From Picocystis sp. L7 (taxonomy: Eukaryota > Chlorophyta > Picocystophyceae > Picocystales > Picocystaceae): DNA of 64,000 nucleotides. Below are positions 12,303 through 27,053 of this stretch, in pieces. The first letter of the stretch is position 1, and every line of letters starts with the position of its first letter. Where the stretch lies: contig QXJR01000015.1 in assembly GCA_020975725.1 (NCBI GenBank), positions 186,001 to 250,000 on the forward strand, in the 5' to 3' direction. The position numbers and the translations under genes are program-made. The notes under the pieces were generated by a model. It saw only the letters and a list, made by a program, of their open reading frames with translations. It ran no database searches and was not told the origin of the DNA.

Positions 12303-15300
12303 TCAGCTGGGTGGGTGTGTGAAGGAGTTCAATGTATCTGCTCTCTCCTGGAGCACCCTCTTGTCTTCTTCCTGCATCTCCTTCCATTGCTGCGCAACTT
12401 CCACCAATTTCAATCCAGCAGCACACTTCTCACTCACAAAAACATTGTAAGCAGAAACCCGTCGCAGCAATTTCGGCTTCTCTTCCACCATGTTCTTTGC
12501 TTGCTGTTTGCCCTTCTTTGTGGATGTTGATTTTGACGTGTTCCTTTTCGCCGAAGCAATTCGCTTCTGGGTCGCTTTTCCTTTTCCCGAGGCCTTGAAT
12601 CTTGTCTTTCTGGGAACTTTTCCCTTTTCATCTAGTACCCTAACAGCCTCATCCAAGCTCATCCCAAACAACGAGTCCTTCTCTTGTGAACACAGCGGTT
12701 CAGAAGCCAGTGCAATCAATGCCTCCCTCCACGTTTCCTTAGGAACAGAGGCAAACTTCTCACCATCAGATAGGTAAGGACCGAAGCGTCCACACCGAAG
12801 ATATATTGGTGCATTGTCAGAAGGACGGTCTCCAACATGGAAAGGGAGTCGTAGCAATGCCAAGGCAAGCCTCAGCGGCACTCCTTTGTTGCAAACTGGG
12901 TCTTCGGCAAAACATGGTGGAACACTTGAGCGGGGTGGCTTCTGCTGGACAGCTTTCTTCGATTTTGCCTCCTCAACAAAGGGAAGCTTACTTCCTGTCT
13001 CTTCATTGTCTGGTAGCTCAAGCTCTAAGTAGGCGCCATATCGACCTTCCTTCAATCTCACAACCCGACCAGTCAGTGGGTCCTTTCCAAGGTACTCTCC
13101 CAAGGAATCAGCGCTTACATACTCGCCACGTCCTAGTGCTTCTAAATCTGGTACCCGCAGCGGCATTTGAACAGTGCACTCTGGGAAATTGCTGCAGCCT
13201 ATAAAACCCCCACTTTTACTTGATGGCTTGAATCCCAGCCTTCCAGTCTTACAAGCTGGACAAGTGCGGGCTTGTCGCTCTTCTTCTGCTGTGATAGTAT
13301 GAACAGTACGTGGAATCACATACTCACTTTCTACGCTGTTGCTGTCGCCCAATAATAGCCGCTCCCTTTGTTTTGCTGCATCTGCCTGCACTACAGCTGA
13401 CCGAAAAAGATGCGATCCAAGTGTGTCGTCAATGTGATCTACCACATCTGTGACAGCAATACCATCTGCTGCTTCAAGGTCGGTAGAAAGCTGCGACCAG
13501 AAACCCTCAAGCGTCTGTAGGCGGTTTGCACTGCCTCCTGCAATATCATCCAACATGGCCTCCACTTGAGCTGTGAACTCGGATCTACAATAGGAGGAGA
13601 AATACAGTGACAAGTATGCCGAAGCCACCCTTCCAGGAGTTGTTAGCAGCAACGGAGACCGTGCCCCTCCTTCTCGCTCGATGTATTTCCTGTCTCTCAA
13701 AGCAGAAAGCGTGGGAGCATACGTTGATGGGCGACCAACACCCAATTCCTCCATGGTCTGGACTAAACGTGCTTCTGTAAACTTTGATGGTGCCAAAGAT
13801 TTATGATGTGAGATGTGCAAGTACGTGCAGATGGATGGATTTGTCGTTGTCGCTGGAAGCTTTCGCATGCCCTCTGTCTCTTCCTCAGGAGGGTGGTTAT
13901 CCTCTTCACTCTGTATTCCTGTTGATTCCAAACCAGCGACGACTGAGAGAGTGTTTCGAATCTGCTGTCGAATGTCTGGAGAGAGAGCCTGCCATGCCCC
14001 TCCTTGCAAACTGGCTTCGTCAGATTGGACCAGCGGCCAGACTACATCTCCCTCCTCCAGTGGAGGTAGTGGACGAATTTCTTGCTGCTTCCCCATGCAG
14101 CACATCCACCCAGGCAAAACAACGCGCTGAGAACTGGCTCGAAATGTAAGCAAACCTTCCATATCTTTCCCTCCCAGTTCCACTTCATCCACCTCGAGGT
14201 CTGCGTTCTCCATCTGCGCGGCAACTGCACGTTTCCAAATGAGCTCATATAAATCTGCCGCTCTCTTGTCGTCGATTGATTCTATGCTGTGCCTTTCTCG
14301 AAGCATTTCAGGGGTGAGCATAGGATTGGTTGGCCGAATCGCTTCATGAGCGTCCTGAATTTTCTTTGCCGCGGATTTTCTGTTTCCTTGTCTGGGTGTC
14401 GTGGGTACGGTGCTCTTCCCGAATTCCTTTGCTGCTACCTCTCTGAGCATCTGCAACGCTTCTGGGGATATCCTTGTAGAATCAGTTCTCATGTATGTAA
14501 TCAATCCCGTTCCAGCATTCAAGGCATGTCCTTCGTACAGTCTCTGGGCCACGCTCATGGCCGTGCTGACCCTCATTCCCAACTGCTGCGAAGCCGAGAC
14601 TTGTAGCGCGGCTGTGTTGAGCGGCGGGGGCGGTGCTCGAGTTTTGCGCTTGGTCCTTCTCTGGGTCACTACCAAGCCATCTTGGCCTGCAATCACCGCG
14701 GCCCTGGCCGCCACTTTGGACGTCAAATCCAAGCTCTTCAGTCCGTACCTTCCCAACGGCTGGCCATTTACAGAGACGAGCAGAACACGTAGGATTCTTG
14801 CATCGGACTTGTCCAGCTTCTCCTGTGTTTCTGGCCTTTGGCGGGTGGATACGTCCAACCAAACCTGGTGATATTCGGTGGGCACGAAGGCTTCGGCCTC
14901 CCTTTGCCTTTGTTCGAGCAGTCCGAGCGCAACGCTTTGCACGCGTCCAGCCGAATTGGATCGGCTTCCCAGCTTCCTCCACATGCGCGGACTCACTTCG
15001 AATCCGACCAGGAAGTCCAGGGCTCGCCTGGCGAGTGCAGCTTCCACGAGGTTCATATCGATGGGTCTCGGATTTTCCATCGCTTTGGCGACGGCATCTG
15101 CCGTGATTTGTGCGAACGCGCATCGATTGGGGCCTTCCGCCGAGTTGGGCACGAGTTCCGCCACGTGCCACGCGATGGCTTCTCCTTCGCGGTCTGGATC
15201 CGTGGCGAGTCTCAGCTGCAGGCCGTCTTTTCCGGCTTGTTCGATGGTTTTTCGCAGCTGTCTGGCGTTTTCTCGTTCTTCCCAGAGCATGGCGAATCCT

Positions 15301-15560
15301 CGGCTGGGATCCACCGACCCTTTCTTGGGCCGCAGATCCCGCACGTGTCCACGCGTGGCCACGACGCGCCACGCCTTGGGCAGCATGGCTTGCAGCACGT
15401 TCGCTTTGGACGGCGATTCCACCACCACGAGCATCGGTCGATCGGTCTCCGCGGCGCCCTTTCCCGCGTGGGTGCAGCACAGGCGCATCTTTTGCCTTCC
15501 ACGTCGCGGAAACGACGCCAGGATCCCTCCTCGAGGCGCGGAAGACGCCATCTTGGCCAT
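12303..15560 (-). CDS. Bacterial-type DNA topoisomerase I (type IA) with C-terminal HMG-box-like tail
   Basis: It relaxes negatively supercoiled DNA through a transient 5'-phosphotyrosine, probably in an organelle. About 1085 aa. The N terminus is Arg/Ser/Ala-rich and transit-peptide-like. The Toprim domain follows (VVESPSKA, then ATDPDREGEAIAWH), and the active-site Tyr is in GLITYMRTDSTR. A four-Cys zinc ribbon (TCPACK...GCSNFPEC) comes next, then two TopA C-terminal repeats (EGRYGAYLEL; CGRFGPYLSDG) as in bacterial enzymes. A Lys-rich linker leads to about 55 residues with SAYNVFVSE and QWKEMQEEDK, resembling an HMG box. Start: ATG 15560 (15551 is alternative). The open frame further upstream runs into transposon sequence and is not part of the gene. 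Confidence 0.9.
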   Translation of the reverse strand: MAKMASSAPRGGILASFPRRGRQKMRLCCTHAGKGAAETDRPMLVVVESPSKANVLQAMLPKAWRVVATRGHVRDLRPKKGSVDPSRGFAMLWEERENARQLRKTIEQAGKDGLQLRLATDPDREGEAIAWHVAELVPNSAEGPNRCAFAQITADAVAKAMENPRPIDMNLVEAALARRALDFLVGFEVSPRMWRKLGSRSNSAGRVQSVALGLLEQRQREAEAFVPTEYHQVWLDVSTRQRPETQEKLDKSDARILRVLLVSVNGQPLGRYGLKSLDLTSKVAARAAVIAGQDGLVVTQRRTKRKTRAPPPPLNTAALQVSASQQLGMRVSTAMSVAQRLYEGHALNAGTGLITYMRTDSTRISPEALQMLREVAAKEFGKSTVPTTPRQGNRKSAAKKIQDAHEAIRPTNPMLTPEMLRERHSIESIDDKRAADLYELIWKRAVAAQMENADLEVDEVELGGKDMEGLLTFRASSQRVVLPGWMCCMGKQQEIRPLPPLEEGDVVWPLVQSDEASLQGGAWQALSPDIRQQIRNTLSVVAGLESTGIQSEEDNHPPEEETEGMRKLPATTTNPSICTYLHISHHKSLAPSKFTEARLVQTMEELGVGRPSTYAPTLSALRDRKYIEREGGARSPLLLTTPGRVASAYLSLYFSSYCRSEFTAQVEAMLDDIAGGSANRLQTLEGFWSQLSTDLEAADGIAVTDVVDHIDDTLGSHLFRSAVVQADAAKQRERLLLGDSNSVESEYVIPRTVHTITAEEERQARTCPACKTGRLGFKPSSKSGGFIGCSNFPECTVQMPLRVPDLEALGRGEYVSADSLGEYLGKDPLTGRVVRLKEGRYGAYLELELPDNEETGSKLPFVEEAKSKKAVQQKPPRSSVPPCFAEDPVCNKGVPLRLALALLRLPFHVGDRPSDNAPIYLRCGRFGPYLSDGEKFASVPKETWREALIALASEPLCSQEKDSLFGMSLDEAVRVLDEKGKVPRKTRFKASGKGKATQKRIASAKRNTSKSTSTKKGKQQAKNMVEEKPKLLRRVSAYNVFVSEKCAAGLKLVEVAQQWKEMQEEDKRVLQERADTLNSFTHPPS

Positions 15561-15610
15561 GCGCGCGCGCACGCAGCACGGACCAAAGCACGAAACTGAT
15601 CCAGGCCCTC

Positions 15611-15633
15611 GAGTTAACCCATGGGTTAACCCA
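15611..15633. promoter_or_regulatory. Paired GTTAACCC motifs upstream of the topoisomerase gene
   Basis: GAGTTAACCC and GGTTAACCCA lie 12 bp apart, about 50-75 bp upstream of the topoisomerase start. AGTTAACC also recurs upstream of the CXC, zinc-finger and PEPC genes. Confidence 0.4.
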
Positions 15634-15644
15634 GGACGGGACCC

Positions 15645-15655
15645 CCTCCTCCCCC
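15645..15655. repeat. Target-site duplication, left copy (11 bp)
   Basis: CCTCCTCCCCC precedes the first base of the MULE terminal repeat and is repeated exactly at 27054-27064 after the other end. Mutator-like elements usually make 8-11-bp duplications. Confidence 0.85.
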
Positions 15656-16316
15656 GGTTGCGACTGAATTTTGGCCCCCCCCTCGACTGAATTTTCACCC
15701 CCCCCCCAGATGCACCCTCGTTTGGAAAGATCACACCCTAGTCCCACGAGTTAAGTCGAAGGGGGACTCCGATCGATCCCCGCGGGAATGGAAGGGATCG
15801 AAACAGAAGGGAGAGGTCCAACCCATAGGACTTCGGGTCGATTGGGAATGGACCGGGTTCGACGTACCCATCGAAACCAAGGGAAAAAGGACCAAGACCC
15901 GAATCACAGCCCCAGATCCAGACGAAGAAAAAAGACCGACGCATCGGAACGGATCGGAACGCGACGCGGCGTTCGTCGCGGGCAGAGGACGCGCAGCAGG
16001 TCAAGACGCCGCAGACGAAGAAGGAAGAGCACCTGGATGGGCAAGACGCGTCAAGCCATGCGGAAAGGACGCGGGAAAACGAGTGTGGGAAAACGTGGGA
16101 GCGTGCGAATGCACGGCACATCTGTGGCTCTGCCATCGATGGGCCCTGCACTCGCACCCAACTCGACTGGGTTGGACACCCCTGGGTACCTCGTCACGGT
16201 AGGGGAGGGGGCGAAAAGGGGGCGAACACCAACGTGGGGGGAGGACGACGAAGACACACCAACGCGACTGCAACGACGGGACGGGTCGAACGTGACGAGG
16301 ACAGGACGGATCGAAC
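15656..16316 (+). repeat. MULE left terminal inverted repeat (661 bp)
   Basis: Reverse complement of 26393-27053 with only a handful of differences (for example around 16022-16036). It includes G/C homopolymer runs and an AGATGCACCC word near 15709 that matches a host promoter motif. An Arg-rich open frame reads through most of it in both copies but looks incidental. Confidence 0.9.
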
Positions 16317-16584: not shown

Positions 16585-16957
16585 ATGGATACATCCGTGG
16601 CATGTCCAACCCCGGAGACAGTGCTACCATCCGAGTGGGTGAGAAGGGCAACGTGTCCAATTTTCCATGGGCAGGGGCATCTTCACCTTTGTGATGAGGA
16701 ACAACAATGGTTGACAGTAGAGCTTTCCAAGTTGCAAGGGGATAGCTTGGCCAAGTGGGTCAAGCAAAGCTCAAAGGGTGCTGCAAAGGCCAAGTACCCA
16801 ATCCTTGGTTTGGATGGAGTCGCCAAATTGGGAAGATGGGTATGCAATGCATCGTGTGTATGCGGATGCAAAGCTCAAGCATTGATGCAAAGAGAACCCC
16901 AAGGGAACCTTGTATTGCTCTCGAAAGGTGCGCACAATCATGAAATCGAGAAGATTC
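16585..16957 (+). pseudogene. MULE transposase, N-terminal part (interrupted)
   Basis: About 124 codons from the ATG at 16585 to the retrotransposon boundary. It contains a FLYWCH/WRKY-GCM1-like zinc-binding pattern: Cys residues in CNASCVCGCK, then LLSKGAHNHE. That domain normally binds the terminal repeats. The reading frame resumes in phase on the far side of the retrotransposon at 24577, as expected for a clean insertion into an intact gene. Confidence 0.75.
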
Positions 16958-17604
16958 TGTTACAAAGCGTCCGTGAGGAGCACTTTTACACACGTTTCGC
17001 TCTGATGAGCTTCGAGCTTCCACGGGCGAAGGTGGGAGAGGCCGGTTGGGCCTTGAAGCGATTCCTTTCTTGTTCTCGCGAAGGGGGGGGTTCTTCGGCT
17101 CCCTAGCAAGAGGGACACCGCGAGAAAGCTTCCAGTGGTCTTCAAGAGCAGTTGGCGTGTGAAAAATGGCGCGCCAAGCTCGTGGGAGAGGCGACGTGGC
17201 TCTCGATGGTCAAGCAAGTTCTCTCTATTTCAAGGCAAGGGTGGCTCCCCTAAGGGCCACCATAGGAGGGAGCGCTCCAAGCGGAGCTCCCTCTCAAACC
17301 AGCGGTTGCTGGTGGTCACGTGGACCCCGCGTCCCGATCGGACGGTCCAGCACTGAGCTTGTGATTCACCGAATCTATCCGGACAACATCCGCACCCTTC
17401 GTTGTCCCTTGAAAGATTCCGAAAGATTCGCCCGTTGCTAGGTCCCTTTCAGTCCCGGTTCTCCCGGACAATTCGTCGACTAATCGAGAGATTAGTCCGG
17501 GGGGATGTCCAATGAACTGATCAGCAGTTGGGGTCTTGTGTCTAACTGCTAGTGGTACAAAGAAGAGCATGGCTTCAAAGGAGTCAGGCTTACCCGGCGT
17601 AACA
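16958..17604 (-). repeat. 3' LTR of the Ty3/gypsy element (647 bp)
   Basis: Matches 23926-24572 in full length, with no difference seen by eye. It is bounded by TGTTAC and GTAACA on the plus strand. The preceding ATTC (16954-16957) is one copy of the target duplication. Confidence 0.93.
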
Positions 17605-17631
17605 CTCTCCTGGCTCCTGGCATTCAGCTCA

Positions 17632-20600
17632 TCATAGCTGAAAGTCATAGACATAGGCCACAGGATCGTAGAGCATACCCTTGACCTGCTGCTCGCTGTA
17701 CGATTCTGTCTTTCCATCTGTCCACATTACTTCCAATTGTCCTCCACTGTCATTGGTCACCACTCCCTGATAGTATGCAGATTTGTGATCTCCCATGTGG
17801 AAGAACTCTTGTACCACACAGCCAAGCAGGTTGACTGGCATAGTCACTTTGGGCCTGCGTCGGGTTTGGTACGGCAGCTTCGCGTAAGTCCAGGTGTTCA
17901 CCATTACAGGTTCTGGTGATTGGAGGTATACTGTTTTCTTGTGTGTCCTGACAGCATCATAATTAGTTGGGCTGATGCCCTGCTCAGGTATACATCCATT
18001 GTTTTCTTCGAGCGGTAAGAATTCCTCCAGCAGGGTGGAAGTTTCATCCACCCAAAAGAAGCGTTGCGATGCATCGGCCAGGTTGCTTTCAATCCAGTAA
18101 CGTACGGGGCGCGTAGGAAATACAGAGTAGTCCCGTAACAAGTATCGTCGAATACGATAAGCGGCGGCTTCATTTTGCATGGCTGCACTATCCGGTAGCG
18201 GCGCCGTAGCAGGCTGCGTATGCTCGTCCATGGGGAAGAGAGTAAGATCTGAATCTACCCAATGTTCCAATCTGTTGGCATGGATACGGTCTGAAAAGGA
18301 AGAGCCTGGTGGTAGGTCCAGTTGGTAGGCTCCATTCTTCAGCACTTTCTTGATGAGGTAAGGACCTACAAAGTAAGGGTCCAATTTGTGTTTGTCAGTG
18401 GGTCCCTTGAGCCCATACTGAACTTTTACCTTGTCACCCACAGCAAAGACCTTCTTCGGTCGGTGCGCAGTTGCTTCAGCCACTTTCTGTGCAGCCTTCA
18501 ACAGATTCTCCTGCACAGCCTGATACACCGTGCGGTGTTGTTCCAGCAAGGTTGTAACTCTCCTGTCAAAAGTTGTGACCGTTTGATTATCAGCAGTTCC
18601 ATCCCTTCTGGGTAGTTGAAGGTGCCATGGTAACCTGGATTGGCAGCCGTACAGCAGCTCAAAAGGGGAGTGCTTGGTAGCATCATGCACGGTATCATTA
18701 TATGCATGTGCTGCTGCTTGCAAGTACTGATCCCAATGATGTTTGTCAGCACAAGTTGTTCGGAGGGTCTGCAGCAGCGTACGATGTTGCCGTTCAGCAC
18801 CACCTTGTGACTGCGAGTGATACGGTGTCCCAGTAACATGGCGGGCACCCAACGCTGCGCAGAATGCTTGGAACAGCGCTCGATAAGCCGGTCCATTATC
18901 TGTATGGATATGCACAGGTGTGTGAAACCTGTAAATTAAATTGTCCATGAGACATTGAGCTTGTCTATGAGCACTCCAGGTGGAATGGATGGGTATATAG
19001 ATAGCATATTTGGTAAATCTGTCCACTACTGTCAGCACTGCGTTGTGACCCAGAACTGTAAGGGGCAAGTTCTCCACCATGTCCAGCACCACTGTGTGGA
19101 ATGGGTAAGGGTAAAACCTCATCTCAGGACAGAGTGGTATGTGTCGTAACCGGTTACCAGGTTTCTGAAGCTGACAGGCAGGACAGCGAGCGACGAAGTG
19201 CTCGATGTGCGATCGAATCCCAGTCCAGGTGAAATGTCGCTTGGCGTCTGCGAGCGTACGGGCTGATCCAAAGTGTCGATGATCGTGTACCATGTGCAGC
19301 AACTCCTGTCGTAGAGCGTTATCTGCTGGTACCACCAAAACTGGTTGAGCGTTTGTCGATTGATCGAACAGTAAACCATCGCGAACAGTTGTGCCCTCCG
19401 GCGGTGCGTCCAGTAATTTCTGGTAGTCAGGATCCGCTTTAGCGGCGACGCGAATTCTGTCCAGTATGGGAGGTAACTGACCAGTAAGACCTGTACGCAA
19501 CGATTGCGCTGATTGCTGATCTGTAATAGACGCGATTGACCCACACACAGTCCCAGCAGGACTGCGGCCGGCTAGCAGTCGAAGCGTCCGTGTGTTGTTC
19601 AGCCATCGGTGTAACATGTGTGCAATCCAACCCATGGGGAAGGCGTTGCCGCACATGCGCTGCCGGCTGGTTTCGCTGACGTTGAGCGCTGCAGTGTCAC
19701 CAACCTGCATACCGACGAGTCTTTCTCGCTCGCTGATGGTCAGCGGGCGTAGAGTCCCATCTTGATCGTGCACCCAGGTGGAACGTGAACGGTCGCTGTG
19801 CGAGCGTTCGCTGGCCATTAAAGTGGGGCACTTCAAGCGGGGTCGATTCAATGCGTCTAACGGCACCTTTGATCCAGGTTCTAGGCAATCCTGCCAGGTC
19901 ATAGGTGTTGCCCCCCTGTGTTCAGGCTCATGCTTGAGGGGTGGTAGAGAGGTCCAGCACAGCCGGACTCGCGCTTGCGCACAATACTTTGAGAGGTCTT
20001 CGCATATGGGCTCTCCAAACCAGTGTGCAATCTTGTCCAGGTGGGTCTTCAAGTGCGCCGCAAACGGCGTGCATTCCAATATGTAATCAGGCGATCGCAA
20101 CCGTTCGTATATTTTTGCTACTGCTGTGAACAGTTCGCGCGTATCGTACAACCCAAGCGGCGGTTTCGAGGGATCGGTGTTCGCCCTCGAGAATGGCTGA
20201 CAGGGCACCCCAGCAATCAGCAGGTGGACTTGGGGGAGCTTCCGTCGATGCGCCAAGGCGGTCACATCGTCTCCATAGCGAAAGATGTCCTTACGTGTAA
20301 ACAGGCCAGGCCGTGCCAAGCGAACCTGATGAAACACGCGTGCGATCACGCTGCGGCAATCCTCATTCTCTTCCACTGCGATGTAATCCAAAGTAATGTT
20401 GCTTGATTCTGGTATCGCATGTTCCAGCGCACGCAAGGTGGTTCCCATACCTGCACATAAGTCCAGAATGCAGTACGTATCGGTGTCGTTGACCTTGGCT
20501 GAGTGCCTGGAAAGGTAATCAGGTCCAACATTCTCTGTGCCTGGTCTGTACTCCACCTTGAACGGGGCGAAGTAAGCCAGCTTTTCGATCCATCGCATTT

Positions 20601-22617
20601 CGCGCGGCGACAACTGCTCCGTAGCCTTTGTTCCAATGAACTGACTGGCCTTGTTGTCAGTGATGACAGTAAACTGCTGGCCAAACAGGAGGTGTCTCCA
20701 ATGCTGCAGTGCATACAATATTGCACAGGTCTCTTTCTCAGCAGGATGATAGTTTTGCTGAGCTGTGTTGAATTTCTTGGACCAGAACTCCACAGGACGC
20801 CAATTCCCTTGCTGGTCCTGTTGCATTAAGGCTGCTCCCATTCCCACATCTGAAGCGTCGGTTTCGACCCGTATAGGTCTGTCTTCATCGAAAAGCGCTA
20901 GTACAGGTGCGGTGGTCAGGGCTTTAATCAGTTCTTGATAGGCATCCTCCTGCGGCTCCTTCCAGTAGGATGCGAAGCCGTGCTTCAGGGCTGCTTGATT
21001 CAATTCAGTCAACGGGGCCGCCCGTTCCGCGTAGCGAGGAACGAATCGCATGTAAAACTGGCAGAGTCCAAGGAATGCCATGTTTTCACGCTGCGTGCGA
21101 GGACGCGGAAACTGTTTGATCTTGGACAGCAGGTGATCGGTGCACGCGAGCTGACCGTTGCGAATGCGGAACCCAATCCATTCCAGTGTACTCATGAAAA
21201 AGTGGCATTTGGACCTTTTCAACCTGATATCGGCACGATCGCAGGTGGCAAAGAACTCTTCAAGATGTTTGAAGTGTTCTTCAACTGTTTCTGAGTGGAC
21301 AAGGATGTCATCCATGTACACTTTTAGGTACAGTAGATGACCAAACACCCTGTTCATCATACGTTGGAACATCGCGGGTGCGTTTGCTGCCCCCATGGGC
21401 ATCACCTTCCATACAAATGAACCGAATGGGGTGACGACCGCTGTCTTGTCGATGTCGTCAGGGTGCATACGGATCTGGTGAAACCCATCCAGGGCATCAA
21501 GCGATGAGAAGTACTTGGCTCCTCTGAGGTTTTGTAAGTAATCATCGATCCGCGGCAGCGGATATCTGTCTTTGATGGTTACATTGTTCAGCAGGCGATA
21601 ATCGAAAACGACTCGCCATCCCCCATCCTTTTTTGGGACCAGGATCACTGGGGCACCCCAACTGGATCCTGCGCATAGGTCCATCTTTCCAGCCTCAACA
21701 TACTCGGTCACCAGCTCTTTGAGGGCAGTCTGCTGTTGGGGGGATAACCTATAGTAATTTCTGTATTGCGGAGTCGCTCCTTCCTCCACCTGGATCTTGA
21801 ATGTTTCGCCCGGGACACGTTCCGGAGGCAGTTCTGTACGGGGCTCGAATAAATGCTTATACTGCTTGTTCAACAGGTCATCGAGCCGCTGTCGATGAGC
21901 GTCGTCCAGGGGCCACTCATCGCTAACCTGGCTGTGCATGCCGCCAAAGTCTGAGTCTTCGCTGATGAGTTCCGGCGTTTTGTCCACAGGCTGAATCATG
22001 AGGAGTAGGCAGCCAGGCTTCTTCACCGCTTTACGTGCTTCGCTCCTGGGCACGATCAGGTCCAGTTTTCTTGAGGCAATGAACTGGTGGTCTCCGTAGA
22101 CAGTAAATTTTGTGCCATGGTTGTTTCGCAGCACCATGCGGTGATTCTGCCAGTCCAGTGCTGTCAAGTGCTTATGACAGAATGTGGCTCCTAGAATACA
22201 GTCAAATGTTTCTAAGGGAGCAACTCCGAAGTCGATGTTGGATTGGAATCCATCGATCGAGAATCGAGCCTTTATTACTGGGGCAGTGTGAACCTGCTGG
22301 CCCACAGCCACGCTGTAATTGAAGGCTGTTGTTGTATACTGCCAGGACAGACCCTTTGGGTCAGCTTGCTGCAGTTCTTTGAAGAGGCGTTCGCTAATGA
22401 AGCAGTAACTCGCTAGGGTGTCCAGGTAAGCTTGCGTTCTGACTTTGTGTGGTTTGTTTCCAAAGTAGGTTTCAGCAGCCAGGAATTCATGTCTAGGCCT
22501 GTCATTGGTGAGTGAATGCAGGCAGACTGGATTCCCATCCTTGGTAACCGGGGCGGCTGCAGGTTTCGCTCCCGGCTCCGTCCCGGCAACCGTAGTTACC
22601 GGACGGAGGGTCTTCAG
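17632..22617 (-). CDS. pol: Ty3/gypsy pol reading frame with embedded C5-methyltransferase
   Basis: The frame is open throughout and has no ATG near its start, consistent with expression as a gag-pol fusion. Modules by position: retropepsin-like DTLAS near 22,420; reverse transcriptase with YMDD near 21,310; RNase H with ETDAS near 20,860; C5 methyltransferase about 19,600-20,490; integrase with an HHCC-like finger and D-D-E residues (LDMVE, HTDNG, GAERQ) about 18,800-19,300; GPY/F module near 18,370; chromodomain-like WIESN...FFWVDE near 18,080; Tudor/Agenet-like VMWTDGKTE near 17,690. The methyltransferase has motif I (LDLCAGMGTT), IV (PCQPFS), a VI-like Glu, VIII (QARVR), IX and X (MCGNAFP). 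Family placement is certain; catalytic activity is inferred. Confidence 0.92.
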   Translation of the reverse strand: MKTLRPVTTVAGTEPGAKPAAAPVTKDGNPVCLHSLTNDRPRHEFLAAETYFGNKPHKVRTQAYLDTLASYCFISERLFKELQQADPKGLSWQYTTTAFNYSVAVGQQVHTAPVIKARFSIDGFQSNIDFGVAPLETFDCILGATFCHKHLTALDWQNHRMVLRNNHGTKFTVYGDHQFIASRKLDLIVPRSEARKAVKKPGCLLLMIQPVDKTPELISEDSDFGGMHSQVSDEWPLDDAHRQRLDDLLNKQYKHLFEPRTELPPERVPGETFKIQVEEGATPQYRNYYRLSPQQQTALKELVTEYVEAGKMDLCAGSSWGAPVILVPKKDGGWRVVFDYRLLNNVTIKDRYPLPRIDDYLQNLRGAKYFSSLDALDGFHQIRMHPDDIDKTAVVTPFGSFVWKVMPMGAANAPAMFQRMMNRVFGHLLYLKVYMDDILVHSETVEEHFKHLEEFFATCDRADIRLKRSKCHFFMSTLEWIGFRIRNGQLACTDHLLSKIKQFPRPRTQRENMAFLGLCQFYMRFVPRYAERAAPLTELNQAALKHGFASYWKEPQEDAYQELIKALTTAPVLALFDEDRPIRVETDASDVGMGAALMQQDQQGNWRPVEFWSKKFNTAQQNYHPAEKETCAILYALQHWRHLLFGQQFTVITDNKASQFIGTKATEQLSPREMRWIEKLAYFAPFKVEYRPGTENVGPDYLSRHSAKVNDTDTYCILDLCAGMGTTLRALEHAIPESSNITLDYIAVEENEDCRSVIARVFHQVRLARPGLFTRKDIFRYGDDVTALAHRRKLPQVHLLIAGVPCQPFSRANTDPSKPPLGLYDTRELFTAVAKIYERLRSPDYILECTPFAAHLKTHLDKIAHWFGEPICEDLSKYCAQARVRLCWTSLPPLKHEPEHRGATPMTWQDCLEPGSKVPLDALNRPRLKCPTLMASERSHSDRSRSTWVHDQDGTLRPLTISERERLVGMQVGDTAALNVSETSRQRMCGNAFPMGWIAHMLHRWLNNTRTLRLLAGRSPAGTVCGSIASITDQQSAQSLRTGLTGQLPPILDRIRVAAKADPDYQKLLDAPPEGTTVRDGLLFDQSTNAQPVLVVPADNALRQELLHMVHDHRHFGSARTLADAKRHFTWTGIRSHIEHFVARCPACQLQKPGNRLRHIPLCPEMRFYPYPFHTVVLDMVENLPLTVLGHNAVLTVVDRFTKYAIYIPIHSTWSAHRQAQCLMDNLIYRFHTPVHIHTDNGPAYRALFQAFCAALGARHVTGTPYHSQSQGGAERQHRTLLQTLRTTCADKHHWDQYLQAAAHAYNDTVHDATKHSPFELLYGCQSRLPWHLQLPRRDGTADNQTVTTFDRRVTTLLEQHRTVYQAVQENLLKAAQKVAEATAHRPKKVFAVGDKVKVQYGLKGPTDKHKLDPYFVGPYLIKKVLKNGAYQLDLPPGSSFSDRIHANRLEHWVDSDLTLFPMDEHTQPATAPLPDSAAMQNEAAAYRIRRYLLRDYSVFPTRPVRYWIESNLADASQRFFWVDETSTLLEEFLPLEENNGCIPEQGISPTNYDAVRTHKKTVYLQSPEPVMVNTWTYAKLPYQTRRRPKVTMPVNLLGCVVQEFFHMGDHKSAYYQGVVTNDSGGQLEVMWTDGKTESYSEQQVKGMLYDPVAYVYDFQL
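19600..20490 (-). other. C5 cytosine DNA methyltransferase domain within pol
   Basis: About 295 residues. Visible motifs in order: I (LDLCAGMGTTLRALE), IV with the catalytic-Cys loop (GVPCQPFSRAN, near 20,200), a VI-like ILEC retaining the Glu, VIII (QARVR), a recognition-like segment (KCPTLMAS), IX (LTISERERLVGMQ) and X (RMCGNAFP). The set and order match eukaryotic C5 methyltransferases, and the recognition segment recalls the DNMT3-like branch. Prokaryotic origin is not excluded. Confidence 0.88.
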
Positions 22618-23879
22618 TTTTTTGGGGCACCCATTACGGATGCCATTTTACAGGCTGCCTGGTCATGGCCGTAACGGCGGCAGCGCAGACACAGTGCATG
22701 TGCCAGGCACAGGTCCTTCTCTTCTGGAGACAGTTTCGCACCAAGGGGCTTGCTGGCCAGTTTGGTCTGCACCTTGACAATAGAATTCTTCTGGTCTTCA
22801 TCCAAATCATCAAAGCGCTTACGCTGCCGTTTGGCCGATCCACTTCCACTGGATCCACTGCCGTACTTCGTCGATGGGAGAGCGGCGGCCACTGCTGCTG
22901 TTGTCCGAGGAACAAAGCTCCGCTGAAGCTCCCGATTGCGACCGATTGTGGACTGTGGTTTCCAGGTGCTTGGTGACTGCCTCGTGTCCTTTCTGAATCG
23001 ATCGTTCTCCTCCCTTTCCAACTTGAAGATGATGGCAGCAAGGTTCCCAGGCTCCATGTCAGGAGCCTTGTCCACTTCAACCAGGTGGTCCAGGTGCTTG
23101 TAAAGTGCACCTTGCAAGTAACTTGGGAGGCCATGCTGAAGACGGGCAGATATGTCATGCTCTGTGAGTGTGCGGCACACTGGTGAGGTGCTCGCATTCA
23201 CCACAAAGCTCAGTTGTACCAGCCTGTTGAGATATTGGAGAACATTTTCTGTCCGCTTCATACGGGCAGTATGAAACTCGCGCCACGCCTCGGGACCAGG
23301 GTCTTGGCTTTGGAAAGTCTTGCGGAGGTACCGGTACAGGTCCTCTACGGACGCGAGGGAGGCTGGGTCCCGCATGATCAGATTTTGGACCATGGCTTTT
23401 GCGGTGCCAGCGAGGGCTTGATTAATGGCCAGGACAAGCTGTTCCATTGGCCTATTGAAGGCATAAGCTTGACACCAGCAAAGAACATCCCTATACCAGT
23501 AGGTGAGGGCATAGGGGTTGTCCTCGAGCTCGAGACCGGTGAACTTGTCCGGTTTCTCGAGCGACACCTTCGATATGTTCTTCGAATCTTGAAGGGCTGT
23601 ACCATATAGACTTATCAAGTGCGGCAAACCTTCACGCTCTGATGGAACCATGTCCATCAAAGCTTTCGCATCCGCTTCCGCTTGGTGAACCCCTTCGGTA
23701 GGGTGCGTTCCTTCTTCGCCATCAGTTTCTTCAACTTCCATGGCTTCCGATGCTTGAAGATCTTCAACAAGTTGCTGAAGCTCTGCAACTTTAGCTTCTA
23801 GAGACCTCTTTTGGTCTCTTTCTTGCTCAAGCTCCCTTCGTAGGGTGCCCATGCGGGTGGCATGGTCCCCTTCCTCCAT
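22614..23879 (-). CDS. gag: Ty3/gypsy gag
   Basis: 421 aa from the ATG at 23879. The N terminus is a heptad-rich coiled coil (LRRELEQERDQK...) followed by an acidic stretch. The middle is a capsid-like region (REFHTARMKRTENVLQYL). The C terminus carries a CX2CX4HX4C zinc knuckle (CLRCRRYGHDQAAC), the nucleocapsid signature. An A-AAA-AAC heptamer (22617-22623), in the correct phase, stands directly before the stop codon. This is the classical site for -1 ribosomal frameshifting, which LTR elements are known to use to enter pol; the pol frame is exactly -1 relative to gag. Confidence 0.9.
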   Translation of the reverse strand: MEEGDHATRMGTLRRELEQERDQKRSLEAKVAELQQLVEDLQASEAMEVEETDGEEGTHPTEGVHQAEADAKALMDMVPSEREGLPHLISLYGTALQDSKNISKVSLEKPDKFTGLELEDNPYALTYWYRDVLCWCQAYAFNRPMEQLVLAINQALAGTAKAMVQNLIMRDPASLASVEDLYRYLRKTFQSQDPGPEAWREFHTARMKRTENVLQYLNRLVQLSFVVNASTSPVCRTLTEHDISARLQHGLPSYLQGALYKHLDHLVEVDKAPDMEPGNLAAIIFKLEREENDRFRKDTRQSPSTWKPQSTIGRNRELQRSFVPRTTAAVAAALPSTKYGSGSSGSGSAKRQRKRFDDLDEDQKNSIVKVQTKLASKPLGAKLSPEEKDLCLAHALCLRCRRYGHDQAACKMASVMGAPKN

Positions 23880-23925
23880 TCCGTGGTAAGCAAGCGAAGT
23901 ACAAACAAAGCTCAAGCTTCGACAG

Positions 23926-24572
23926 TGTTACAAAGCGTCCGTGAGGAGCACTTTTACACACGTTTCGCTCTGATGAGCTTCGAGCTTCCACGGGCGAAGG
24001 TGGGAGAGGCCGGTTGGGCCTTGAAGCGATTCCTTTCTTGTTCTCGCGAAGGGGGGGGTTCTTCGGCTCCCTAGCAAGAGGGACACCGCGAGAAAGCTTC
24101 CAGTGGTCTTCAAGAGCAGTTGGCGTGTGAAAAATGGCGCGCCAAGCTCGTGGGAGAGGCGACGTGGCTCTCGATGGTCAAGCAAGTTCTCTCTATTTCA
24201 AGGCAAGGGTGGCTCCCCTAAGGGCCACCATAGGAGGGAGCGCTCCAAGCGGAGCTCCCTCTCAAACCAGCGGTTGCTGGTGGTCACGTGGACCCCGCGT
24301 CCCGATCGGACGGTCCAGCACTGAGCTTGTGATTCACCGAATCTATCCGGACAACATCCGCACCCTTCGTTGTCCCTTGAAAGATTCCGAAAGATTCGCC
24401 CGTTGCTAGGTCCCTTTCAGTCCCGGTTCTCCCGGACAATTCGTCGACTAATCGAGAGATTAGTCCGGGGGGATGTCCAATGAACTGATCAGCAGTTGGG
24501 GTCTTGTGTCTAACTGCTAGTGGTACAAAGAAGAGCATGGCTTCAAAGGAGTCAGGCTTACCCGGCGTAACA
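23926..24572 (-). repeat. 5' LTR of the Ty3/gypsy element (647 bp)
   Basis: Same length and, by eye, the same sequence as the other LTR. It is followed on the plus strand by ATTC (24573-24576), the second copy of the 4-bp target duplication. Confidence 0.93.
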
Positions 24573-26282
24573 ATTCCAAAAGGTAGAAAAGACGGTCTCT
24601 CTCGTAAAATCAAACTAGAGCTATTGAAATTTGTGGAAAGCGACTTGATTGTCCCGAAAATTATTTGCCACCTAGAGAGTTCGGGATTCGAGTTGGAAGG
24701 AGCCACAAAGAAGCAAGTGAAGAACTTTTTGAATTACAAGCGGACGCTACTTGCAAGCAGCAACAAGCTCGGAGATTTTATCAAAAGCATCAAAGAGGAT
24801 GTCCACATGGAAAACAAAAGCTATGCCAAGGACGAGTGCTTTGTGGTCAATCATGAAATTGTCGACGAATTCTCAAATGAAGATACGTTGAAAACATTGA
24901 TGATCAGTTTTTCATGCCCATTAATGGTCACATGGTTGAAAGAATGCATGGAAAGGGGTGGAACTAGGCAAATTACGATTGATGCGACATTCAAGATAAT
25001 TACAGGGGATGAGCATATCTTAATGGCAAGTGGTTTCACAAATCCACAAGGGCATTGGCTCCCAATACTTTATAGCATTGTGCCGGGAGAAAGTACAATT
25101 ACAACCACCTTCCACTTGAATTCATTTTGGGACTTGTTGGGAGAAGATGCGAGTGCTTTTTTTGATGGTGTTTATGTGTTGAAAGATGCAGGTTCAGGAC
25201 TCCACTCAGGTGTGCACTCTTTCTTCAATTCGAAGGGATGCAAATGGCATCAACAAGATTGTTATGCACACTTGAGTCGAGTCGATGGCAACTTGCAACA
25301 AGCATTCAAGAAGTACCAAGTACCAAGTGCCATCGGAGTTTACATCGCCGGAGTAGTGAGGCAAATCTCATACTCACCAAGTAAAGAAGTTCGAGAGGTG
25401 TTGATGGAAATGTTTGAGAGAGAGTTTGAGAAGCACAAGGACTTCATGAGGTGGTGGAAATCAACTTATGGAGGGCCATTCAAGAATTGGGCTAGATGTG
25501 ACGCACCCGAAGGGTATCCAGTTAGCAACCAAGGTCACGAAAGTAACAACAACACCTTGAAGAAGGTACACATGCCTAGCAGATGTACGCAACGAAGAAT
25601 CGACCTCCATAAATCAGTTGTGCCTTTAAAGAAAGCAATCTCATCTTTGGTGAGAGAAAAAGAAAGAGAGTATCGGTGTGGTCACACAAATGAGTCATCA
25701 TTGCCACTCAAATTATGGGAAGAAGTAGACCAATTCATGATGTGCACGGATTAGTTTCTCCGACAAGAAGTGAAGGACCTTGCATTGTTCCCATCGAAAA
25801 GAACAATAGAAGCTACCATGAAATTGGCGATTCAGCGAACATCTACACAATTCAAGGAATTGATGATCCACTCATTAGATGCAAGCAAAGAATTGGTGGA
25901 AGAGATGGACTTACAAATGCACAAGTTGTTGTTTGAAGAGGCAAGCAGCTTTTGTGAGAAAGGACTGTTGCCTCATCCTAATGAAACACTACAAAAGTTC
26001 TTTGAACGCACAAGTGCTTGGGTGATGCTTGGTACAACTTGTACTTGTTACACATTTCAAGATAAAGGTGTTTGCAAGCATTCCCTAGCTCGAAGAGTCC
26101 ACAACAATGAGCTTCAGATTCCAATCAACGCAAGACTGCTGAAGCATTCCAAATTCGATCGTTTAAAACTGACTTATGAGCAAGAGCGTACCAGGAAGCA
26201 AAAAGCAAGAGAGGCAGCCAACCTCCAACGCAAGAAGCGCTTCAAAGAAGGGGTACTAGAACATAACTTCCAAGGAACTTGA
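24573..26282 (+). pseudogene. MULE transposase, catalytic and SWIM part (interrupted, one in-frame stop)
   Basis: It continues the frame broken by the retrotransposon. The DDE catalytic core shows Asp in ITIDATF, Asp in VLKDAG, the following CYAHL segment, and Glu in NQGHESNN. A SWIM zinc finger follows (TCTCYTFQDKGVCKHSL, pattern CxCxnCxH). A single TAG at 25752-25754 lies in frame between DDE and SWIM parts; sequence on both sides is transposase-like. Either this copy has decayed by one substitution or the codon is read through. With the insertion it cannot make a normal transposase. Confidence 0.85.
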
Positions 26283-26392: not shown

Positions 26393-27053
26393 GTTCGATC
26401 CGTCCTGTCCTCGTCACGTTCGACCCGTCCCGTCGTTGCAGTCGCGTTGGTGTGTCTTCGTCGTCCTCCCCCCACGTTGGTGTTCGCCCCCTTTTCGCCC
26501 CCTCCCCTACCGTGACGAGGTACCCAGGGGTGTCCAACCCAGTCGAGTTGGGTGCGAGTGCAGGGCCCATCGATGGCAGAGCCACAGATGTGCCGTGCAT
26601 TCGCACGCTCCCACGTTTTCCCACACTCGTTTTCCCGCGTCCTTTCCGCATGGCTTGACGCGTCTTGCCCATCCAGTTGTTCCTCCCTCTTCGTCTGCGG
26701 CGTCTTGACCTGCTGCGCGTCCTCTGCCCGCGACGAACGCCGCGTCGCGTTCCGATCCGTTCCGATGCGTCGGTCTTTTTTCTTCGTCTGGATCTGGGGC
26801 TGTGATTCGGGTCTTGGTCCTTTTTCCCTTGGTTTCGATGGGTACGTCGAACCTGGTCCATTCCCAATCGACCCGAAGTCCTATGGGTTGGACCTCTCCC
26901 TTCTGTTTCGATCCCTTCCATTCCCGCGGGGATCGATCGGAGTCCCCCTTCGACTTAACTCGTGGGACTAGGGTGTGATCTTTCCAAACGAGGGTGCATC
27001 TGGGGGGGGGGTGAAAATTCAGTCGAGGGGGGGGCCAAAATTCAGTCGCAACC
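26393..27053 (-). repeat. MULE right terminal inverted repeat (661 bp)
   Basis: Inverted copy of 15656-16316. It ends CAGTCGCAACC immediately before the second copy of the 11-bp target duplication. It carries the same AGATGCACCC word on the minus strand. Confidence 0.9.

Follow-up and report, generated by a model that had tools for sequence, protein, structure and literature searches.

A DNMT3-class cytosine methyltransferase domain inside the pol frame of a Ty3/Gypsy retrotransposon family of Picocystis sp. L7

Cytosine methylation is best known as a weapon of the host against transposons. The locus described here raises the question of why a transposon should itself carry a C5-cytosine methyltransferase. 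We have analyzed 64,000 nucleotides of the alga Picocystis sp. L7 (contig QXJR01000015.1, positions 186,001 to 250,000; hereafter the window), which contain on the minus strand, at 16958-24572, an intact Ty3/Gypsy long terminal repeat (LTR) retrotransposon. Its pol frame (17632..22647, minus strand, as are all features of the element) runs for 1671 aa without a stop. Between its RNase H (20569..20964, PF17919/PF17917) and its integrase lies a domain at 19600..20472, which fold and profile show to be a DNMT3-class C5 methyltransferase. We lean towards the reading that this domain methylates the new complementary DNA (cDNA) of the element and that the mark would be kept by the DNMT1 of the host.

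Both comparisons identify DNMT3 as the closest C5 class. Among the 1000 chains ranked highest by Foldseek, the top 37 fold matches are all DNMT3, and a profile of the family scores DNMT3A at 51 bits. In a tree, a tentative grouping of the methyltransferase with DNMT3 has a support of 88, DNMT3 being represented there by a single fragment and the branches being long. The C5 motifs stand in canonical order, unlike the rearranged order of DRM, and the catalytic Pro-Cys of motif IV (Cys codon 20200-20202), the Glu of motif VI (20074-20076) and the Arg-x-Arg of motif VIII are present in all 39 copies compared. On the other hand, the domain is only 21-25% identical to the catalytic domain of animal DNMT3A and DNMT3B in structural alignments and, unlike them, is embedded in a retroviral-type polyprotein with no ADD or PWWP match in pol. 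The class also bears on the idea that the target of the domain is RNA, be it the primer tRNA or the genomic RNA, while the particle assembles. For LINE-borne DNMTs, an RNA substrate is raised by de Mendoza and colleagues (in an excerpt of PMC5890265), but considering that the profile class is DNMT3 and not DNMT2, in agreement with the fold matches, we regard an RNA substrate as very improbable.

The preliminary description of this DNA had proposed a Ty3/gypsy element with an integral methyltransferase and intact motifs, and had looked to further copies in the same genome; both points were borne out. A six-frame search of the genome (20.5 Mb in 30 contigs) with the domain gave at least 135 matches with identities of 49-100%, the scoring having covered 134 of 188 candidates; two of these matches look like pieces of a single copy. 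The domain is free of stops in 120 of them; 60 belong to frames 1660 aa or longer, and in 57 of these 60 it is likewise uninterrupted. When residues were scored by aligned columns, Pro-Cys, Glu and both Arg were kept in 39/39 copies, the Gln of PCQ in 38 and the motif I Gly in 37; key residues together with the lack of a stop were found in 37, where a stricter regular-expression count of motifs had given 28/39. The catalytic residues are invariant across 13 lineages, although the 12 others are 29-79% identical to the window domain. Many loci of the genome share the architecture, as do 20 proteins from databases, one of which (P0003) carries the label of the data set of this alga. This refutes the explanation that a methyltransferase gene was falsely joined to pol by assembly or annotation; nothing was found in its favour, and we treat its probability as negligible. 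A more distant Ty3-type pol in the databases (P0020, 1832 aa) has a C5 methyltransferase in the same place at 28% identity, as well as a weak PHD-finger match close to its C-terminus, and may go back to a second capture or to one far older.

Are these elements young, and is the domain maintained in them? An LTR search found at least 43 matches (40 of 58 candidates scored), comprising pairs and apparently solo LTRs. In seven elements of several lineages, with LTR ends drawn by script, the two LTRs differ at 0/647, 0/728, 0/436, 0/226, 1/224, 0/356 and 1/660 positions; two other loci (L034, L036) yielded no LTR pair. Therefore, several lineages inserted recently. We estimated the ratio of nonsynonymous to synonymous divergence (dN/dS) of the domain by NG86 on 32 sequences and 496 pairs, counting each locus once. 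A single split, that of the window subfamily from L060, accounts for six pairs with ratios of 0.082-0.098; three pairs of a second split (L021 and L023 against L025 and L026) give 0.066-0.072, and L071/L075 gives 0.065. For the region from reverse transcriptase (RT) to RNase H, the same splits give, in order, 0.014-0.047, 0.023-0.035 and 0.033. The median for the domain is 0.36 in 14 young pairs (dS 0.02-0.3) and 0.085 in 40 pairs at dS 1.5-3, and 426 pairs are saturated. Accordingly, the domain is under purifying selection, weaker than that on RT. A DNMT-bearing retrotransposon after de Mendoza (2018) is marked by a DNMT domain within its own frame that recurs in several copies, keeps its catalytic residues and is under purifying selection, and this combination is found here.

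The trees of RT (42 sequences, six short or mixed ones dropped) and of the methyltransferase (41 sequences) have 30 of 38 splits in common; 24/25 strong RT splits recur in the methyltransferase tree, and 21/23 strong methyltransferase splits in the RT tree. This agreement bears on the proposal, made for transposon-borne methylases in an excerpt of PMC6338049, that such an enzyme works for its host, for instance in defence against DNA viruses, and persists since carriers gain. In this genome, the domain mostly tracks the phylogeny of the element, several lineages inserted recently, and no separate host gene of DNMT3 type stands among the scored PF00145 matches, so that a service to the host seems to us hardly probable.

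What, then, could the enzyme do for the element? RT, integrase and the methyltransferase are all parts of one polyprotein, and for this reason the enzyme should enter the particle with them. It would then methylate the newly made double-stranded cDNA, probably at CpG sites and no later than the integration step, and host DNMT1 would maintain the mark on the inserted copy. The new copy would thus arrive resembling methylated host DNA, and the benefit may be either that a response to foreign, unmethylated DNA is evaded or that the element damps its own expression. We infer packaging and cDNA methylation from the position in pol and, by analogy, from DNMT3 domains of dinoflagellate DIRS elements, for which CpG activity in yeast is demonstrated in the excerpted part of PMC5890265. 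Alternatively, the methyltransferase may move with the integrase and methylate the insertion site or nearby host chromatin, thereby marking or silencing the landing region. The methyltransferase directly precedes the zinc domain of the integrase (H2C2, 19159..19323, PF17921 E 6e-16), ahead of the catalytic core (rve, 18814..19047, PF00665 E 4.1e-12), and animal DNMT3 enzymes act on chromatin, both of which speak for this alternative. However, no recognized chromatin-reading domain lies beside the methyltransferase, and cDNA is presumably the DNA that the enzyme should meet first; we consider action at the insertion site unlikely.

Several observations weigh against methylation of the cDNA by a maintained DNMT3-class enzyme. 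Motif VI, which is ENV in animal DNMT3A and DNMT3B, is ECT in the window domain, the Asn and Val being replaced in the family (ECT/ECV). Over the same three splits, the constraint on RT (0.014-0.047) is stronger than that on the methyltransferase (0.065-0.098). Identical topology of the two trees is rejected by the approximately unbiased (AU) test (p 0.0004), so some exchange between lineages occurred. One element (L069, G000:C4:1116773-1119080) has its RT in the window clade and a more basal methyltransferase outside that clade, and is a probable recombinant; we read the history of the two domains as long co-inheritance with occasional recombination. CpG shows no clear depletion in the element: its ratio of observed to expected is 0.78, and seven further stretches from the window and from host loci span 0.68-1.03. 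The sequence thus gives no mutational footprint of self-methylation. With flanks included, and for few loci, the ratio is 0.78-0.81 in loci of the C5 family and 0.99 in one locus of the Dam family described below. The Gypsy DNMT3 of Klebsormidium showed no activity in yeast, a result that its authors call inconclusive in the excerpt of PMC5890265. Finally, a Dam-bearing family persists without the C5 methyltransferase domain.

How general is the domain among the Ty3-type elements of this genome? A search for RNase H (150 of 204 candidates scored) gave 118 matches that have a match to the methyltransferase where one is expected and 32 that have none. The preliminary description had called such methyltransferases very rare, which may hold across eukaryotes but does not hold in this genome. 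It had also named copies lacking the domain as a point against it. Such elements exist: 26 of the 32 have a Dam (PF05869) match downstream instead, as has none of the 118. The six of these 26 that were read (L041, L044-L048) belong to one family, a sister clade. Among the six matches with neither domain, one (C7:51551) does carry the methyltransferase on reading, missed by both searches, one (C18:84904) is a copy of the Dam family that lacks its 3' end, and the other four could be truncated copies of the window clade. In one element of the Dam family (L041, L058, L059; G000:C19:155900-165600), a 2669-aa polyprotein frame continues into the 3' LTR. The LTR itself encodes the Dam-like domain, which hence stands alone in the 5' LTR too, and 22/26 elements have a second Dam match upstream on the same strand, as expected if both LTRs carry Dam. 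The Dam-like domain passes the Pfam cut-off (E 4.2e-12). Motif IV of Dam-type enzymes is usually D/N-P-P-Y/F/W, and since it is HPPC here, activity is doubtful. Genome-wide there are 101 Dam matches; 49 of them could not be assigned to any of the RNase H matches scored and stand for solo LTRs or other elements.

At the position of the methyltransferase, the sister family has about 200 aa without a PF00145 match or motif IV. This fact, together with an uncorrected dN of 0.053 and dS of 0.257 for L041/L046 (the most diverged pair of the family that is not obviously decayed), which suggests some constraint, speaks for a domain that is catalytically inactive and retained as a spacer or structural part of pol. 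Considering that a spacer has no need of the catalytic residues kept in every copy compared and in all 13 lineages compared, we regard this explanation as improbable. The 201-aa sister stretch and the N-terminal half of the methyltransferase domain align along the diagonal. The stretch scores 25.6, higher than every one of 600 shuffles (best 23.1) and every one of 224 chunks cut with overlap from ten window frames (best 22.8), and profile alignment gives P 0.0055 and 0.0023. A plain hmmsearch ranked the stretch only 10th among itself and 2000 shuffles, and its predicted structure, with a confidence (pLDDT) of 37, is uninformative. The stretch is likely an eroded methyltransferase, as far as alignment can tell. 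In the RT tree, rooted on P0020, the Dam family is nested among methyltransferase-bearing lineages with printed supports of 99-100, labels that can shift upon rerooting; from this nested position, loss of C5 in the Dam family is the simpler reading. A tentative extension, which we consider possible but on balance doubtful, is that a methyltransferase is near-obligatory for Ty3 elements in this lineage and the methylated base interchangeable, with C5 in pol in one branch, whereas the sister branch let C5 erode and gained an LTR-encoded Dam-like adenine methyltransferase. If both enzymes are active, the function would resemble restriction-modification, a generic mark by which new cDNA is taken for self, and would not be silencing by 5-methylcytosine as such.

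To which lineage does the host belong? The preliminary description had named a red alga as one possible host, which we could not uphold. One light-harvesting protein is closest to Lhca-d/Lhca3 entries; a second has Lhcb-type matches, its top match by summed score being the repeated LHCI protein of 9vfj. DNMT1 is of plant/green type, with 47-49% identity to the green algae Micractinium and Coccomyxa as the closest named records; it is also 100% identical to a EukProt entry named Pavlova_lutheri and 87% identical to an ENA protein. On the basis of these proteins we place the host among the green algae and take the name Pavlova to be either misleading or due to contamination. Further EukProt entries under that name match this alga (P0003, P0022, P0136 and others), and several fragments of methyltransferase-bearing pol are labelled in this way too. 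The C5 genes of the host comprise DNMT1 (RFD, BAH), CMT (BAH, chromo), a DNMT2-like gene and one with PWWP, which fits the ChloroDNMTs in the excerpt of PMC12344493. No DNMT3 was found among the PF00145 matches (123 of 177 candidates scored), and the excerpted part of PMC9998398 reports none in the green algae of MMETSP. A search for ADD_DNMT3 gave no match here, nor in any control, and so carries no weight.

Where the domain came from can be narrowed in part. With the family profile, host CMT, DNMT1 and DNMT2 score 16.7, 12.4 and 6.6 bits, far below DNMT3A, and therefore appear to be unlikely donors; the PWWP-bearing gene scores below zero, its tested frames being perhaps incomplete. In viral contigs, the window domain found no relative and the family profile only four distant partial matches (26-33%), which give no support to a viral origin. 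For a bacterial origin, genome contigs gave five loci, four of them distant (30-48% across short stretches). The fifth (L053, PUNI01000121.1) is a 4.7-kb contig of a Rhodobacteraceae metagenome-assembled genome with a 75% identical methyltransferase, probably a eukaryotic contamination of that genome. Among PDB sequences, 3lx6 and 3me5, which we take to be bacterial enzymes, rank best after DNMT3A/B; for this reason an old bacterial source may still be considered.

DNMT-bearing retrotransposons are already known. According to the excerpts of PMC5890265, KnitGypsy-Dnmt3 of Klebsormidium nitens shares with the window element the LTR Gypsy type, a DNMT3-class domain inside pol, conserved key residues and purifying selection. 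Compared by description, its repeats are DIRS-like whereas ours are ordinary direct LTRs, and it lives in a streptophyte whose DNMT3 gene has several exons whereas our host is a chlorophyte-type alga in which DNMT3 was not found; its copies are fewer than those in Symbiodinium. By the same excerpts, SymbioDIRS-Dnmt3 and SymbioLINE-Dnmt of dinoflagellates resemble the window family in DNMT domains, high copy number and purifying selection, but are DIRS and LINE elements with other integration enzymes in another host lineage. DIRS elements with a Dam-like domain (excerpts of PMC5890265 and PMC6338049) are, like the sister family, retrotransposons carrying a DNA methyltransferase-like domain; the sister family differs in being Ty3-type with an rve integrase and in having the domain in its LTR. 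One sentence without data in the excerpt of PMC6338049 states that red and green algae have Ty3/Gypsy and DIRS elements that encode DAM and DCM, and our search of titles and abstract openings found no description of such a Ty3 family in a chlorophyte. As far as this search shows, the chlorophyte-type host, the high share of scored Ty3-type elements with the domain and the complementary Dam-like family are new. Here transposons themselves carry the C5 methyltransferase, in most scored Ty3-type elements of a compact alga in which no DNMT3 gene was found. Such an alga is a small, sequenceable system for asking whether retrotransposons mark their own cDNA, and the C5/Dam split of sister families lets one ask whether the mark must be 5-methylcytosine.

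The remaining anatomy of the window element is that of Ty3/Gypsy. Ty3 Gag-Pol is the top PDB match of pol (E 5.7e-106), and RT (21163..21639, PF00078 E 8.9e-36), RNase H and rve integrase follow one another in the order of this group. A protease-like region at 22177..22440 has weak Pfam matches below the cut-off, and an SH3-like domain (Tf2-1 type, 18265..18408) matches PF24626 at E 1.6e-6, slightly below its cut-off. The gag frame (22614..23927, 437 aa stop to stop) has a Retrotrans_gag match below the Pfam cut-off (E 7.8e-4) and, read in the sequence, a CCHC zinc knuckle close to its end. Pol follows in the -1 frame, and immediately before the gag stop lies A_AAA_AAC (22617..22623), which we take to be a classic -1 ribosomal frameshift heptamer; expression of pol by frameshifting is thus predicted. 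The heptamer is also found at the gag end of L037 and L040 and is absent in L032, L035, L038 and L039. The two identical direct LTRs of 647 bp, the 3' copy at 16958..17604 (TGTTAC...GTAACA) and the 5' copy at 23926..24572, have TG..CA ends and lie between target-site duplications ATTC (16954..16957 and 24573..24576). Flanks joined via a single ATTC occur elsewhere in the genome as five uninterrupted copies at 99% identity and one at 90%. These are empty copies of a surrounding DNA transposon, so the insertion is genuine. The transposon has inverted repeats of 108 bp that are 100% complementary (16209..16316, plus strand, and 26393-26500) and a frame at 24489-25754 without a Pfam match at 1e-5. 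The nested transposons adjoin a bacterial-type DNA topoisomerase I gene of the host at 12303-15737.
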